A stretch of DNA of 64,000 bases from Shewanella pealeana ATCC 700345 (GTDB lineage Bacteria; Pseudomonadota; Gammaproteobacteria; Enterobacterales; Shewanellaceae), in the NCBI RefSeq assembly GCF_000018285.1, contig NC_009901.1:247001-311000 (forward strand), in the 5' to 3' direction. Both the position numbers and the translations under genes were made by a program. Shown here in pieces: positions 49,091-57,471 of this stretch (position 1 is its first letter; every line of letters starts with the position of its first letter). The notes below the pieces were generated by a model. That model saw nothing but the letters and a program-made list of their open reading frames with translations, searched no databases and was not told where the DNA came from.

Positions 49091-50299
49091 TTAGACTGGT
49101 TTAAATAGACACTTTAGTCGCTTGAAGATAATCAAACGTGACATGGCTAAGTAACCACTGACAGTTTTTTGATGTAAACGGAAAATCGTATCGTAGAGGC
49201 GACGGACTAGGCGGCCTTTTAAGATCAATCTATCGTTCATCATGGTGCTAATGGCAAAGTTATGGCCGATAGCGACTACCATGCCACCGTCGTTGTAGAC
49301 GAAAGGCTTGAGGGGCTTGCCCTTTAAATGGGCAACAAGATTTTTAGCTAAATGCACGGCTGCACGGTTAGCTGCTTGTGCTTTTGGCGGTACCTGGCTG
49401 CCATCTGCTTGTGGGATCGCGGCGCAATCACCCAGAGCGAAAATCGATGAATCAAATGTCGTTGCCAGAGTTTGCTCAACCACTAATTGATTTAGCGAAT
49501 TGCTCTGCAGACCGCCAATCTCTTTTAGCCAATCCGGCGCCTTAATACCTGCAGCCCAAAATTGCACGTCGGCATTTAGCACTTGGCCGTCGCTGGTGGT
49601 CATACGATCCGCTTCAACACTGGCGATACGGGTATTGAGCATGACATTAACTTGATACTTCTCAAGCCTTAATAATGCTTGCTCAGACATTTTCACTGGG
49701 CCGTTTGGTAATACACGGTCTGCAGCTTCAATCAAGTTGATATTAAGCTTTGCCGCATAAGGATTGCGACTTAACTCTTCACTGACTTTAGCTAATTCAG
49801 CCGCGAGCTCTAAACCGGTGGCACCAGCGCCAACGATATTAATGGTGCGACTCAGACCTGAGCGCAGCAGTGAGCTGATTTGGTGCCAGCTATCACGGGC
49901 TTGCTCTGGTGTATCTAAGAATAGGCAATGCTCTTTCGCACCTTGGGTAGCAAAGTCATTACTAATTGCGCCGATGGCAATGATTAAGTAATCGTAAGCT
50001 AGCGTATCAGTTTCACCGTTAGGCTTACGAACCACGAGTTGCTTGGCCGCTCGATTGACGTCTGTCATCCAAGCTTGGTAATGCATGTAACCATTATTAG
50101 CGCCATGGCTGAAATAGCAGATTGTGTCGAGATCGCTGTCAAAAGTACCTGCAGCAATCTCATGAAAGCGTGGCTTCCAATAATGGTGAGTTTCACCTTC
50201 AACCAGAATAACTTCATCTTGGCTATTTACACTGCGACCTAGCATGCTTGCGATTTCAAGACCTGCAGCGCCACCACCAACAATAACAATACGAGACAT
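49091..50299 (-). CDS. ndh: NAD(P)/FAD-dependent oxidoreductase, type II NADH dehydrogenase-like
   Basis: This 402-aa two-dinucleotide-binding flavoprotein has an N-terminal FAD motif VIVGGGAAGLEIASMLGR and an NADH motif NIVGAGATGLELAAEL (about 164-179), with a second FAD contact FALGDCAAIP. The C-terminus is amphipathic, as in membrane-attached NDH-2, which passes electrons from NADH to quinone without proton pumping. The frame is open from 50317, but ATG 50299 has GAGGAAT upstream. Another sulphide:quinone or ferredoxin reductase role is less likely. Confidence 0.85.
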   Translation of the reverse strand: MSRIVIVGGGAAGLEIASMLGRSVNSQDEVILVEGETHHYWKPRFHEIAAGTFDSDLDTICYFSHGANNGYMHYQAWMTDVNRAAKQLVVRKPNGETDTLAYDYLIIAIGAISNDFATQGAKEHCLFLDTPEQARDSWHQISSLLRSGLSRTINIVGAGATGLELAAELAKVSEELSRNPYAAKLNINLIEAADRVLPNGPVKMSEQALLRLEKYQVNVMLNTRIASVEADRMTTSDGQVLNADVQFWAAGIKAPDWLKEIGGLQSNSLNQLVVEQTLATTFDSSIFALGDCAAIPQADGSQVPPKAQAANRAAVHLAKNLVAHLKGKPLKPFVYNDGGMVVAIGHNFAISTMMNDRLILKGRLVRRLYDTIFRLHQKTVSGYLAMSRLIIFKRLKCLFKPV

Positions 50300-50717
50300 A
50301 ATAATTCCTCTAAGCATCGACAGATGCGGATGTAATTTAACAAGAGCCTTGGGACTGAAAGGGATACGCAGGGTATGACCGAGTGCAGGGCTTTAATGGC
50401 GCTCATTATAGTTACCATTCATCTAGGAACAATTAGCTCAAAAGGTAAATTACTTTTGCGTGCTGGTAATAATTATGTGTTGGTTATAGCCTAGTGGTGG
50501 CTAAATTATTAGAGCTTCAGCATGTCTATCTCAAGCTTCTGGGGAGCAGCATTCGTTTGAATGTAAGACCAAACTTAGATGAATTACAGAAATAGGTGCT
50601 TTAGCTAGAGTAAATGTTTCCCTATCTAGAGAACAGCAATTATTATAGTCAGTTATGTTGTTTTAACCTGTTAAAACAAGGCTAATTAGTTGTATTGGAA
50701 CGTGAAATAAATCACTT
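50300..50717. other. Divergent region between the NDH-2 and diguanylate cyclase genes
   Basis: This 418-bp AT-rich region has no gene. The notable element is a perfect 10-bp inverted repeat TTGTTTTAAC-CT-GTTAAAACAA (50658-50679), 38 nt before the cyclase start. Its lack of a T run argues for an operator rather than a terminator. Confidence 0.4.
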
Positions 50718-52131: not shown

Positions 52132-53001
52132 CTATTTTAGGCCTTCACTCAGGAAATCCAGCAGCATGCGTACCTTAGGCGAAAGGTGGCGATTTTGTGG
52201 GTACAGCGCCCAGATCCCTTCTTCGGGTTGGCGGTTTTGCTCGAGCAAGGGGGTTAGCTCACCCGATTCAATAAAGGGTAATACGTAATAATCGGGCAGC
52301 TGCACTATGCCTATGCCTTTAATGGCTGCATCAACCAGGGCATGGCCACTGTTGCAACTCAAGCTGCCTTTAACCCGTACATTCCTGGTTTTACCGCTCT
52401 CTTGAAAGCGCCAATAGTCCATGGTGCCAATTAAACAGTTATGCTGATCAAGTTCAGATAGTGAATGGGGTAAACCATAAGTTGCTAAGTAGTTTGGCGA
52501 GGCACACACATATTGAGTTCGGCTGCTGAGCTTCTTAGCCATCATGCTTGAATCTTCTAAATGGCCAAGGCGGATCGCCAGATCATAGCCCTCATCGACT
52601 AGGTCTAACTTCTGATTGCTTAGATTGAGTTTGACTTCAAGCTCAGGATACAGCGATGCAAAGTCATTAATTAGTGGAGCAATGGTTTTTTCACCATAGG
52701 TTACAGGCGCAGTGATCTTTAACAGGCCTCTTGGGGTAGTTTGTAAGTTAGTAATGGCGCGCTCGGCTTCTTCGAGGCCATCGAGTACCTGTCTACAATG
52801 CTGATAATAGACCCGACCCACTTCGGTAACAGATACCTTTCTGGTGGTGCGATGAAACAGTTTAGAGGCTAAGCGTGTTTCTAATGCACTTATCTGCCGA
52901 CTAACCTGCGCAGTCGAGATCCCTAACCGTTGCGATGCCTTGGTAAAGCTTTCGGCTTCTGCGACGGCAACGAACTCACTCACACCTTCCCAATTAAACA
53001 T
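52132..53001 (-). CDS. LysR-family regulator of the formaldehyde gene cluster (predicted)
   Basis: This 289-aa LTTR has a typical HTH (about 6-63: FVAVAEAESFTKASQRLGISTAQVSRQISALETRLASKLFHRTTRKVSVTE) of the CrgA-like subgroup and a C-terminal effector domain from about 92. It is divergent from gfa (359 bp between starts). Four nearby promoters carry a shared T-N11-A site about 66 bp before the predicted transcription start, the usual place for an LTTR recognition site, so this protein is the likely activator of gfa, the ybiI-like gene, frmA and the SMR gene. E. coli uses the unrelated FrmR repressor for this job. Confidence 0.88.
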   Translation of the reverse strand: MFNWEGVSEFVAVAEAESFTKASQRLGISTAQVSRQISALETRLASKLFHRTTRKVSVTEVGRVYYQHCRQVLDGLEEAERAITNLQTTPRGLLKITAPVTYGEKTIAPLINDFASLYPELEVKLNLSNQKLDLVDEGYDLAIRLGHLEDSSMMAKKLSSRTQYVCASPNYLATYGLPHSLSELDQHNCLIGTMDYWRFQESGKTRNVRVKGSLSCNSGHALVDAAIKGIGIVQLPDYYVLPFIESGELTPLLEQNRQPEEGIWALYPQNRHLSPKVRMLLDFLSEGLK

Positions 53002-53360
53002 TGTTACTCTCTAGAAATTATGGCTGGAAAATATGGCTTAATTATTAACATAAATGAGGTAAAAGCAATTTTTAATTTAATCATCGACAAAACCAATATC
53101 TCTCTTCTGTTGCTCATATAGCTGAGTTCCTCATGCTTTTAATTATTACTAAATAGAAAAAGTCATTTGTAAAAACCTCGGATTATCAAATCATATGTGA
53201 GGAATATAATTGCTGCCACACGTCTCTCGTTTCAATGCTGCTTTAAGCACTGAACGATTTACCGATATCGCCAAGGCTTAAGTTCCCCCCCCCTGCGTTT
53301 AGTATGGAATTTAGTATGGGGTTGATATTTGAGTCTTGGCCCATTTTAGGATCAATTATT
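53002..53360. other. LysR-gfa divergent region
   Basis: It holds the gfa promoter (53146-53210, described separately) and an unusually long leader of about 144 nt. The leader contains a C9 tract (53285-53293). No start-distal gene is visible. The LysR promoter on the minus strand was not located. Confidence 0.5.
53146..53210 (+). promoter_or_regulatory. gfa promoter with LysR-type site (copy 1 of 4)
   Basis: The site TTACTAAATAGAAA (53146-53159) begins 37 bp before -35 TTATCA (53183-53188); a 16-bp spacer and -10 TATAAT (53205-53210) follow. The left arm TTAC and the segment AAGTCATTTGTA agree with the SMR promoter at 57017, but the right arm GGTAA is degraded here. Confidence 0.7.
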
Positions 53361-53918
53361 ATGACAACGTTAATTCACCCACAAGTCGACAACGGCATTC
53401 CTGCAACGGCAGCTAGTTTTGCTGGCGGATCACTGCAATGTAAATGTGCAAACAATCCAGTTGAAGTCACCATTGCAGCACAAACTGCTCATAACCATGT
53501 ATGTGGCTGCAGTAAATGTTGGAAGCCTGAAGGCGCGCTATTTGCACAAATTGCCGTAGTCGCAAAAGATAAGGTTAGCGTAACCGCTAATGCCGACAAG
53601 CTACACATCATTGATGAGAGCGCTGCAATTCAACGTCACGCTTGTAAAGAGTGCGGCACTCATATGTATGGCCGCATCGAAAACACGGGGCACCCTTTCT
53701 ATGGCTTAGACTTTGTGCATACAGAGCTATCTAAGCAGCAAGGTTGGTCGGCGCCAGAGTTCGCTGCGTTTGTATCTTCAATCATAGAGTCGGGTACTGC
53801 GCCTGAGGCTATGGCAGATGTTCGCCAAACTCTTAAGGATCTCGGTTTACCTCCTTATGACTGTTTATCACCAGCATTAATGGATGCAATCGCGACCCAT
53901 GTTGCGGCTAACAAATAA
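53361..53918 (+). CDS. gfa: Glutathione-dependent formaldehyde-activating enzyme (S-hydroxymethylglutathione synthase)
   Basis: This 185-aa zinc protein promotes condensation of formaldehyde with glutathione, the first step of the pathway completed by frmA and fghA. Cysteines match the Gfa zinc sites: structural Cys27, Cys29, Cys95, Cys98 (CKC and CKEC) and catalytic Cys48, Cys50, Cys53 (CGCSKC). The open frame extends to 53304, but ATG 53361 with AGGA upstream gives the family N-terminus. In vivo need for Gfa has been questioned in the literature, as the condensation is also spontaneous. Confidence 0.92.
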
Positions 53919-53970
53919 CGCTGAAGAGTGAGCCGATACCGGCTTAAATAGCACTTATACCAGTAATGCA

Positions 53971-53993
53971 AAAAGCGCTTCGGCGCTTTTTTT
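53971..53993 (+). terminator. Terminator after gfa
   Basis: An 8-bp stem AAAAGCGC / GCGCTTTT is closed by a TTCG tetraloop, an especially stable loop, and followed by more Ts. Confidence 0.9.
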
Positions 53994-54026
53994 ACATCTA
54001 TAGCCTAGCAATATGGCTGATTATTG

Positions 54027-54091
54027 TTACCTATCTGCAAAGGTGTTTTAAGGCTTTGGTGGATTATCATATCTATTGGAACAACTATAAT
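54027..54091 (+). promoter_or_regulatory. LysR-type site and promoter upstream of the ybiI-like gene (copy 2 of 4)
   Basis: TTACCTATCTGCAA (54027-54040), then TTATCA (54064-54069), a 16-bp spacer and TATAAT (54086-54091). All spacings equal those of the gfa, frmA and SMR promoters, and GGATTATCA is shared exactly with gfa and frmA. The right arm of the site is degraded. The predicted start lies about 216 nt before the next gene. Confidence 0.65.
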
Positions 54092-54313
54092 GTTTGTTAT
54101 TGAAATGAGGCAGGCTGATAAGCTTTAAAACCTGCTTAGTTAACTGAGCGCCGAGGGACATGGAGTGCTTTGCCTTACATGGCTTACATAAGTTATTACA
54201 GATAGTAGAAGGTGTAGATTGTTAGACGCAGCCCTTACCTTTGGCTATAGATTAATAGGCAGTTGAATCGATTCATGCTCGGTAACCGCTAATTGTCATA
54301 GAGAGGTACTAAC

Positions 54314-54580
54314 ATGGCAGGTGGATGGTCAAGAGATGGTGCAGTACAAGATCAAATAGATAGCAGTGTAGAGGATGCGGTCGCTGCGGCGAGGAGCCGA
54401 CTTATTGGCGGTGAAAGTCGACTGCATTGTGAAGAATGTGGTGAAGATATCCCACAAGCAAGGCGTATAGCCGTTCCTGGTGTTCGACTCTGTATTGCTT
54501 GTCAAAATGAACTTGATAACAGTCAGGCGAAGCAACACTTGTTTAATCGCCGCGGCAGTAAAGATAGTCAGTTACGTTAA
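54314..54580 (+). CDS. DksA/TraR-type C4 zinc-finger protein, YbiI-like
   Basis: This 88-aa protein has the same length as E. coli YbiI and the same ends (MAGGWSRDGAV... and NRRGSKDSQLR). The C4 finger is Cys39, Cys42, Cys60, Cys63 (CEECGEDIPQARRIAVPGVRLCIAC). DksA-family proteins act on RNA polymerase, but YbiI lacks the long coiled coil and has no settled role. GAGAGG precedes the ATG. The upstream shared promoter suggests co-regulation with formaldehyde genes. Confidence 0.9.
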   Translation: MAGGWSRDGAVQDQIDSSVEDAVAAARSRLIGGESRLHCEECGEDIPQARRIAVPGVRLCIACQNELDNSQAKQHLFNRRGSKDSQLR

Positions 54581-54690
54581 ATGACTGACTATAGAAAGTG
54601 AAGCTAAGCAGTACACTGCTTAGCAACTACTTTAAGACATATGTTTTAAAAAGTGCTTCTGTAATTAATGAAGCAATTTTCAAAAGATTA

Positions 54691-54755
54691 TTACCATATG
54701 GTAAAGGTAAATTACCTATTGATGGGATTATCAATAATGAACAGGTAGTTATAAT
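54691..54755 (+). promoter_or_regulatory. frmA promoter with LysR-type site (copy 3 of 4)
   Basis: A clean palindrome TTACCATATGGTAA (54691-54704) fits T-N11-A. It is followed at the shared distance by TTATCA (54728-54733), 16 bp, and TATAAT (54750-54755). The predicted start is about 56 nt before the frmA ATG. Confidence 0.8.
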
Positions 54756-54808
54756 CTTTCCATACCCACTACGGTGACGCACCGTAATTTAAAGTTTATT
54801 AAAACTAG

Positions 54809-55948
<1,140 letters not shown>

Positions 55949-55960
55949 CATCATTGTCTA

Positions 55961-55994
55961 AAATAACAAGCGCTCTCTGGCGCTTGTTATTTTT
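55961..55994 (+). terminator. Terminator after frmA
   Basis: The stem AAATAACAAGCG / CGCTTGTTATTT encloses an 8-nt loop and ends in Ts. It should reduce read-through from frmA into fghA, for which no separate copy of the shared promoter was found. Confidence 0.85.
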
Positions 55995-56076
55995 AAAGGC
56001 TTAATTTTTAAAGATAGAGCTTTAAAGGTTGAGCTTTACAGAATTAGTTTAAAGAATTTATAGGAGTCGGTATTAA

Positions 56077-56916
56077 ATGACCGTTGAAAATATCAGTGTA
56101 AATAAGAGCTTTGGTGGTTGGCATAAGCAGTACAGCCATCAATCTAAAACACTTAATTGCGCAATGCGATTTGCCATTTATTTACCGCCTCAAGCGTCAA
56201 ATGGTAAAAAAGTGCCAGTGCTGTATTGGTTGTCAGGTTTAACCTGCACCGATGAAAACTTTATGCAAAAAGCCGGTGCTCAGCGTATGGCTGCTGAGCT
56301 GGGTATTGCGATTGTTGCCCCTGATACCAGCCCACGTGGTGACGATGTTGCCGATGACACGGGTTACGACTTAGGTAAGGGCGCAGGTTTCTATGTTAAC
56401 GCTACCCAAGCTCCTTGGAACCGTCATTATAGAATGTACGATTATGTGGTTAATGAATTGCCACAGCTGATTGAGTCTATGTTCCCGGTTAGTGATAAGC
56501 GCTCAATAGCGGGCCATTCTATGGGCGGCCACGGTGCACTCGTAATTGCCATGCGTAATCCACAGGCTTACCAGTCGGTGTCGGCATTTAGCCCAATTAC
56601 GAACCCTGTTAACTGCCCTTGGGGCAAGAAGGCGTTCACTGCTTATTTGGGTCGTGATACGACAACTTGGGTTGACTACGATGCGAGCTTATTAATGCGT
56701 CAAGCGACTGAGTTTGTGCCAGCGCTAGTGGATCAAGGTGAAGCTGATGATTTTCTTATCGAACAGCTAAAGCCAGAGGTACTAGAGGCCGCAGCCAAGA
56801 TGAGTGGATATCCTTTAACGCTAAATATGCAAGAAGGCTTCGATCATAGCTACTACTTTATCTCTAGCTTTATCGAAAACCACCTGCGTTTTCATGCTGA
56901 GCACTTAGTTAAGTAG
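56077..56916 (+). CDS. fghA: S-formylglutathione hydrolase
   Basis: This 279-aa esterase releases formate and glutathione from S-formylglutathione, ending the detoxification route. The nucleophile is Ser148 in GHSMGGHGAL, with Asp in QGEADDFL and His in FDHSYYF completing the triad. Cys57 in SGLTCTDENF is a conserved family residue. TAGGAG precedes the ATG. The name frmB is also used for this gene. Confidence 0.96.
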   Translation: MTVENISVNKSFGGWHKQYSHQSKTLNCAMRFAIYLPPQASNGKKVPVLYWLSGLTCTDENFMQKAGAQRMAAELGIAIVAPDTSPRGDDVADDTGYDLGKGAGFYVNATQAPWNRHYRMYDYVVNELPQLIESMFPVSDKRSIAGHSMGGHGALVIAMRNPQAYQSVSAFSPITNPVNCPWGKKAFTAYLGRDTTTWVDYDASLLMRQATEFVPALVDQGEADDFLIEQLKPEVLEAAAKMSGYPLTLNMQEGFDHSYYFISSFIENHLRFHAEHLVK

Positions 56917-56960
56917 TCGCTTATATAGGCGCGATTACTCGCTGACATTCCGACACGAGA

Positions 56961-56986
56961 AGCTGCCCACCAAGGCAGCTTTTTTT
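56961..56986 (+). terminator. Terminator after fghA
   Basis: AGCTGCC / GGCAGCT (7 bp) with a 6-nt loop and a run of Ts. Confidence 0.85.
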
Positions 56987-57016
56987 ATTGCTAATGTTCA
57001 GGCCTCAAAGAGATTA

Positions 57017-57081
57017 TTACCTAAGGGTAAAAGTCATTTGTATTTAATGGTGATTATCAATTCTTACTAGAGGGATATAAT
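57017..57081 (+). promoter_or_regulatory. SMR gene promoter with LysR-type site (copy 4 of 4)
   Basis: The palindrome TTACCTAAGGGTAA (57017-57030) precedes TTATCA (57054-57059), 16 bp, and TATAAT (57076-57081). It shares AAAGTCATTTGTA with the gfa promoter. The predicted start is about 57 nt before the ATG, the same leader length as frmA. Confidence 0.8.
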
Positions 57082-57144
57082 AGCCTCACTAATTTAAATA
57101 TCTTTGCAAACATAGCGTTGCTGAACAAATATTAAGGTAAGAGC

Positions 57145-57471
57145 ATGAGCTGGATTTTTCTTTTATTGGGTGTGGTTGCGGAAGTGTTATCTCATGTGGC
57201 GCTAAAAGCCACCGATGGTTTTAGTAAGCCTTTACCTGCGGCCCTGGTTATTTTAGGTCACCTAACAGCTTTTATCTTTTTAGGCCAAGCAATGAAGGGC
57301 ATGCCAGTAGGTGTGGTGCATGCTTTATGGGCCGGTTTAGCGATTGTGTCAGTGACATTAATCTCAGCTCTATTTTATCGCGAACATTTGGATATGACGG
57401 CTTGGATTGGAATGGTACTGGTGGCTGCAGGTGTGATGATGATTAACTTCTCACAGGGGCATGCTCATTAG
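57145..57471 (+). CDS. Small multidrug resistance (SMR) family transporter, atypical
   Basis: This 108-aa protein has four membrane spans and the essential membrane-embedded Glu13 in VVAEVLSHVALK (EmrE Glu14). Trp62 matches EmrE Trp63. Two substrate-site positions differ: His17 where EmrE has Thr18, and His59 where EmrE has Tyr60. This suggests a substrate other than typical quaternary cations. Its promoter is the fourth copy of the shared formaldehyde-cluster type. SMR proteins work as dual-topology or paired dimers; only one SMR gene is present here. Confidence 0.88.
   Translation: MSWIFLLLGVVAEVLSHVALKATDGFSKPLPAALVILGHLTAFIFLGQAMKGMPVGVVHALWAGLAIVSVTLISALFYREHLDMTAWIGMVLVAAGVMMINFSQGHAH

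Follow-up and report, generated by a model that had tools for sequence, protein, structure and literature searches.

Which regulator controls the formaldehyde detoxification genes of Shewanella pealeana ATCC 700345, and through which DNA site? In Escherichia coli the corresponding regulator is FrmR, a repressor of the CsoR/RcnR family. The window analysed here (64,000 nucleotides of contig NC_009901.1, positions 247,001 to 311,000) contains a cluster of genes for the glutathione-dependent pathway beside a gene for a LysR-type protein (Table 1). A sequence-only reading of the window had proposed that this protein activates four promoters of one architecture, and had contrasted this with FrmR of E. 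coli. The contrast is right: the FrmR/CsoR family (PF02583) had 0 matches at E≤0.001 in the S. pealeana genome, and a control search was positive in 6 of 14 genomes, E. coli included. Control by an FrmR-family protein was set aside for lack of a match. The LysR protein has both domains of its family (PF00126 with 66.9 bits, N-terminal HTH; PF03466 with 141.4 bits, C-terminal substrate-binding). Judging from the comparisons below, we put the probability at about 85% that it is an activator of formaldehyde detoxification resembling GfnR of Pseudomonas aeruginosa, acting at eight promoters via one conserved element.

Table 1. Features of the window discussed in the text (positions within the window; R1 is the promoter model described below).
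Feature	Position	Strand	Evidence
Pyridine nucleotide-disulphide oxidoreductase (flavoprotein, Pyr_redox_2)	49091..50317	-	PF07992 157.5 bits
Fifth site of the window	50401..50473	-	R1 32.5 bits, E 4.7e-7, weakest of eight
LysR-type regulator, 289 aa, GfnR-like candidate activator	52132..53001	-	HTH_1 and LysR_substrate Pfam domains
Site and core promoter of gfa	53142..53214	+	R1 53.1 bits, E 1.7e-13, trained without the own genome
gfa, S-(hydroxymethyl)glutathione synthase	53361..53918	+	TIGR02820 335.9 bits, cut-off 234.55
Site and core promoter of ybiI-like gene	54023..54095	+	R1 44 bits, E 1.1e-10
ybiI-like DksA/TraR C4 zinc finger protein	54314..54580	+	NF008243 144.5 bits, cut-off 96
Site and core promoter of frmA-fghA	54687..54761	+	R1 47.5 bits, E 9.3e-12
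frmA, S-(hydroxymethyl)glutathione dehydrogenase	54818..55948	+	TIGR02818 746.4 bits, cut-off 543.95
fghA, S-formylglutathione hydrolase	56077..56916	+	TIGR02821 417.1 bits, cut-off 281.7
Site and core promoter of SMR gene	57013..57086	+	R1 57.6 bits, E 6.4e-15, top score genome-wide
Small multidrug resistance (SMR) family transporter	57145..57471	+	PF00893 81.1 bits

Every coordinate proposed for the common promoter layout upstream of gfa, the ybiI-like gene, frmA and the SMR gene was confirmed. The first bases of TTAC are at 53146, 54027, 54691 and 57017, and those of TTATCA at 53183, 54064, 54728 and 57054, i.e., 37 bp start to start (33 bp between) in all four promoters, followed by 16 bp and then TATAAT. 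In the common design, ATTATTAC-N6-GTAAAAGTnATTT (minor departures occur) is followed by ATTATCA at 40 bp from the first base, then N16 and TATAAT. The two sites described as clean TTACC-N4-GGTAA palindromes (54691 and 57017) are indeed so; the site at 54027 has two mismatches and the one at 53146 has three. The palindrome is 14 bp long, its best dyad is even-length with the centre at 11.5, and this centre lies at about -64.5 if transcription starts 7 nt past TATAAT.

The core promoter alone is weak evidence for a common set, because an exact genome search with TTATCA-N16-TATAAT gave 7 matches (four of them the cluster promoters) versus 3 in the reversed control, and we rejected it as a definition of the set. 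Two of the three other core matches have the upstream element too, at an unchanged offset: C1:1624430 has a perfect TTACC-N4-GGTAA, and C1:3703018, upstream of a second frmA, has the palindrome with three mismatches. The third (L006) is without the upstream element at that offset. Specificity comes from the upstream element, not from the core promoter. This element is longer than first described, extending from ATTATTAC to ATTT (about 27–29 bp). A table of 102 sites that pair a loose palindrome with a core promoter deviating at no more than one position shows a conserved block from ATTATTAC to GTAAAAGTnATTT, then ATTATCA, then TATAAT; since these sites were selected on the core promoter, the -35/-10 conservation in this table is circular.

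With R1, a sequence-only model of 77 positions built from 47 training sites less than 80% alike (own genome excluded, some close relatives included), we scanned the 5.17 Mb genome and found eight sites, with E from 6.4e-15 to 4.7e-7 (next match E=0.083). An IUPAC pattern allowing up to 3 mismatches recovered 7 of the eight and matched nowhere else (reversed control 0). The genes downstream of the eight sites are gfa, the ybiI-like gene, frmA-fghA, the SMR gene, a flavin oxidoreductase gene, a second frmA (94% identity between the two), an iron alcohol dehydrogenase gene and a gene for an SDF-family symporter. The motif is thus not confined to the cluster, as had been thought possible, because four further sites lie elsewhere in the genome; where four sites had been claimed, the held-out model gives eight, and one of the missed sites is inside the window. 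The genome scan has no R1 match between frmA and fghA, and fghA is probably co-transcribed with frmA. The symporter has no obvious part in formaldehyde disposal. In a Photobacterium locus (L031), a site is found between the LysR gene and a symporter gene whose product is 74% identical.

Conservation was assessed in 80 loci with LysR orthologues (68–95% identical) in other bacteria; the loci were fetched by LysR, so they sample the sites linked to it. R1 at E≤0.01 matched 76 of the 80 loci, from which its 47 training sites stem. For a non-circular count we used a matrix built from six own-genome sites, limited to their upstream 29 bp, and took its best match within ~300 bp of the LysR gene: the element is present (score ≥17) in 76 of the 80 loci. 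Four loci (L033, L035, L044 and L052) have no good site adjoining LysR (score <17), and no pathway gene in the available stretch either. With all offsets from 29 to 61 allowed, ATTATCA, with one mismatch tolerated, falls at offset 40 in 73 of the 76 sites, and three other offsets occur once each. TATAAT (at most one mismatch) follows after 16 bp in 58 of the 76, after 15 bp in 5 and after 17 bp in 1 (other distances 1–5 each). A literal T-N11-A, the form in which the site had been announced, matches in two registers, both of them in 76 of 76 sites chosen by a matrix that includes those positions, but its T and A are not symmetric partners, because the palindrome has even length.

The sequence-only reading had set beforehand, as the test of its idea, that relatives keeping the genes should also keep the motif; the site does recur upstream of these genes in relatives. 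Four sites with identical spacing within 4 kb could also be recent duplicates of one promoter without any common regulation. We regard this as very improbable, since unlinked sites exist, and since across the window plus nine close relatives (the whole of L008–L016) the mean pairwise identity of the element is 0.99 (frmA) and 0.90 (SMR), as compared to 0.47 and 0.41 for the flank upstream of it. Values for linker and spacer fall in between (0.57–0.88). The difference between element and flank indicates that the element is under selection.

Upstream of LysR, 58 of the 80 loci have frmA on the opposite strand at a distance of up to 6.5 kb, and in 37 the distance is no more than 500 bp (contig ends truncate some loci), i.e., the regulator gene adjoins frmA/adhC-fghA, as is the case for GfnR. 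15 of the 80 loci, several of them cut by contig ends, show no frmA, fghA, gfa, ybiI-like or SMR gene there. For each of the 139 sites that a simpler matrix found in 72 of these loci, the next open frame downstream was taken as the target: frmA for 56 sites, an SMR gene for 18, a flavoprotein gene for 17, a ybiI-like gene for 15, an iron alcohol dehydrogenase gene for 10, gfa for 4, fghA for 2 and a symporter gene for 1 (9 precede none of these, and 7 are too close to a contig end). The site is found upstream of frmA in Shewanella, Photobacterium, Ferrimonas, Marinobacter, Microbulbifer (weaker) and Phaeobacter, and it recurs upstream of gfa, ybiI-like and SMR genes in Shewanella. Bacteria with the promoter beside the LysR gene are mostly marine. 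The LysR-frmA pair is also plasmid-borne in S. oneidensis MR-1, Phaeobacter, Providencia and Sphingopyxis; the plasmid loci of MR-1, Phaeobacter and Providencia have the site, and none was found on the Sphingopyxis plasmid (LysR 47% identical). In MR-1, whose LysR gene is SO_RS22905, a site stands upstream of three genes: those for the iron alcohol dehydrogenase and the SMR transporter, and frmA (with fghA). LysR is divergent to frmA even at 47–49% identity. No site was recognised at this level of LysR identity, so the site is not common to all frmA-linked LysR proteins.

Regulator and site also occur together across genomes. Among 77 genomes of the genus (own genome included; orthologue at least 54% identical, site at E≤0.001), 73 have a LysR orthologue (counting a stop-containing fragment in G001), and a site is likewise found in 73: 72 have both, 3 have neither and 2 are discordant (Fisher P=2e-4, uncorrected for relatedness). 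The discordant genomes are G029, with LysR and frmA and no site at E≤0.001, and G027, with a site upstream of frmA and no orthologous LysR in its draft assembly. The three genomes with neither (G043, G060 and G071) have no frmA match at the cut-off used either. G055 has no frmA match at the cut-off, and its LysR gene and site precede fghA. In a sample of 276 genomes of the class (own genome included), three carry the orthologue (own, G198 and G221), and two of these three, own and G198, are the only genomes with sites at E≤1e-6; G221, with a 49%-identical LysR beside frmA-fghA, has no site at E≤1e-6. Three orthologue-free genomes of the class have weak matches (E 1.8e-5 to 2.3e-4), and the one in G202 adjoins a gene for a 37%-identical LysR paralogue. 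Searches spanning more than 40 genomes used stricter filters, and weak sites may be lost in them.

These counts bear on whether the LysR gene is merely a linked neighbour and the element is bound by a different regulator. G027, which retains a site without a detected LysR orthologue, would fit such a regulator, as would the even symmetry of the palindrome, which is atypical for LysR proteins. We nevertheless consider a different regulator unlikely: 76 of the 80 loci have the site no more than ~300 bp from the LysR start, site and LysR are present together in 72 of the 77 genomes and jointly absent in 3, and the FrmR family, the one covered by our search, is unmatched in the genome. The HTH of the LysR protein is kept as well, residues A31, Q32, Q36 and K47 being found in 97–98% of 93 distinct orthologues versus 0–17% of 24 paralogues. 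We infer that the LysR protein is the binder, and that this one protein very probably switches on the whole set of site-bearing genes.

By this account, LysR (52132–53001) would bind the ~28-bp element ATTATTAC-N6-GTAAAAGTnATTT, with the centre near -65, and would also touch the -35 region, where ATTATCA lies about four helical turns downstream of the element. Triggered by formaldehyde or its glutathione adduct, it would help RNA polymerase at promoters with a perfect -10 and a poor -35, and would thereby drive gfa, the ybiI-like gene, frmA-fghA, the SMR gene and the genes for the flavin oxidoreductase, second frmA, iron alcohol dehydrogenase and symporter. The fixed 40-bp offset from ATTATTA to ATTATCA is close to four helical turns and fits a LysR tetramer touching both. 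TTATCA matches TTGACA at 4 of 6 positions, the spacer is 16 bp and the -10 is perfect; together with the upstream site, these features suggest an activator-dependent promoter.

LysR might instead act at these sites mainly as a repressor that is relieved by formaldehyde, since repression is known for some LysR proteins. In three loci (L036, L085 and L087) the element overlaps the LysR start codon (offset -1), which makes repression of LysR's own gene plausible. At the target genes, however, the element is upstream of the -35, and the perfect -10 goes with a poor -35 and a 16-bp spacer; moreover, GfnR is described as upregulating its targets (available parts of PMC10308882). A mainly repressing LysR therefore seems improbable to us, and we keep to activation.

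As for what is sensed, four cysteines were compared. All 93 distinct orthologues have C69, C166 and C189, but so do 10, 15 and 22 of the 24 paralogues, respectively, and these three were set aside as sensor candidates. C216 is found in 90 of the 93 versus 3 of the 24, which leaves it as the only sensor candidate among the cysteines. We take C216 to lie at the effector pocket, a placement from general LysR folds. Three of the 93 orthologues are without C216.

One site is found in 44 of the 77 genomes of the genus, two in 7, three or more in 22 and none in 4. Since 44 genomes carry just one, the ancestral state looks to have been one LysR-frmA site, from which the multi-promoter form would derive; the regulon looks to have grown by gaining copies of one rigid promoter design. 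Tentatively, we suggest as a possibility that a formaldehyde-sensing LysR reads a rigid whole-promoter module, that in some Shewanella this module has spread from an ancestral frmA promoter until eight promoters carried it, drawing in a DksA/TraR-type zinc finger protein, a flavin oxidoreductase, an SMR pump and a symporter, and that the sensor may be C216 reacting with formaldehyde or S-hydroxymethylglutathione. The results provide a precise site and a gene list for a formaldehyde response in a Shewanella without an FrmR-family protein, tie genes of unclear role (ybiI-like, SMR, flavin oxidoreductase and symporter) to the pathway, and offer a starting point for how a LysR protein senses formaldehyde.

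Classical LysR activators bind near -65 and have an activation site around -35. The promoters described here resemble theirs in the upstream dyad at about -64.5 from the predicted start, the conserved -35 patch and the divergent gene order, and differ in the even-length dyad TTACC-N4-GGTAA and the strictly fixed 40-bp offset to the conserved ATTATCA. With FrmR of E. coli the LysR protein would share control of the same glutathione-dependent pathway (available parts of PMC10308882), but it belongs to a different protein family, and the FrmR family is unmatched in this genome. A close parallel is GfnR (PA3630), a LysR-type protein that governs adhC and the neighbouring hydrolase gene fghA in P. 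aeruginosa, according to the available parts of PMC10926688 and PMC10308882 (the former gives Willsey and Wargo 2016 as the primary reference). In P. putida, PP_1615, the regulator of frmAC, resembles GfnR and not FrmR, and one study saw no significant induction of frmAC (both from the available parts of PMC10308882), which cautions against assuming induction here. In the titles and abstract starts of the open-access literature searched, the site or regulon is undescribed, and the word 'formaldehyde' is absent from the available main text of PMC3223726 and the available parts of PMC5443562. Since LysR control of frmA-fghA is already known from GfnR, the principle is not new. The S. pealeana protein is like GfnR in its LysR type and in its predicted control of frmA/adhC-fghA, a likeness drawn from description and gene order. 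Unlike GfnR as described, it has eight promoters with the site, including those of gfa and of the ybiI-like, SMR, flavin oxidoreductase and symporter genes; what seems to be new is the site in explicit form with its fixed geometry, together with a regulon of several promoters that has apparently expanded within Shewanella.

Beyond the four sites at the predicted formaldehyde genes, the window holds a fifth copy of the element, ahead of a flavin oxidoreductase gene (see table), and homologues of this gene in other species are also preceded by the site. The second frmA, located elsewhere in the same genome, has a site of its own. The unclassified protein encoded behind some of the sites is 142–156 aa long, begins with MEKIE or MEKID, and is probably a membrane protein; a 60-residue piece of it had no match at E<=0.001 in Pfam and NCBIfam.

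Sites and genes outside the predicted formaldehyde-disposal cluster (L, fetched loci)
Feature	Position	Strand	Remark
Second frmA, own genome	L089:5108-6238		94% identical to first copy
Sites preceding unclassified protein gene	L017:5245, L022:4619, L024:4615, L036:6961
Fifth site of the window	50401-50473	minus	ahead of flavin oxidoreductase gene 49091-50317
Weak look-alike site	L179:2759-2821		in front of divergent gene, beside LysR paralogue

The LysR paralogue at L179 is 37% identical and comes from another family, and the look-alike site adjoins a putative iron alcohol dehydrogenase gene. Together, the paralogue and this site perhaps represent a sister aldehyde regulon.

On one contig of a genome of the genus (G021:C10), the cluster and its sites appear twice in mirror order; this is either an artefact of the assembly or a duplication in inverted orientation. 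In S. oneidensis MR-1 (L153), the cluster is carried on the megaplasmid, typed as mobilizable, with three sites, an IS5-like element separating frmA from the ybiI-like gene, and a gfa match that is missing from the gene table. Plasmid pC131 of Providencia rettgeri (L155), typed as conjugative, carries the LysR gene, frmA and fghA with gshA downstream; the site is present in this cluster, and a TEM-1 gene is found ~5 kb away.
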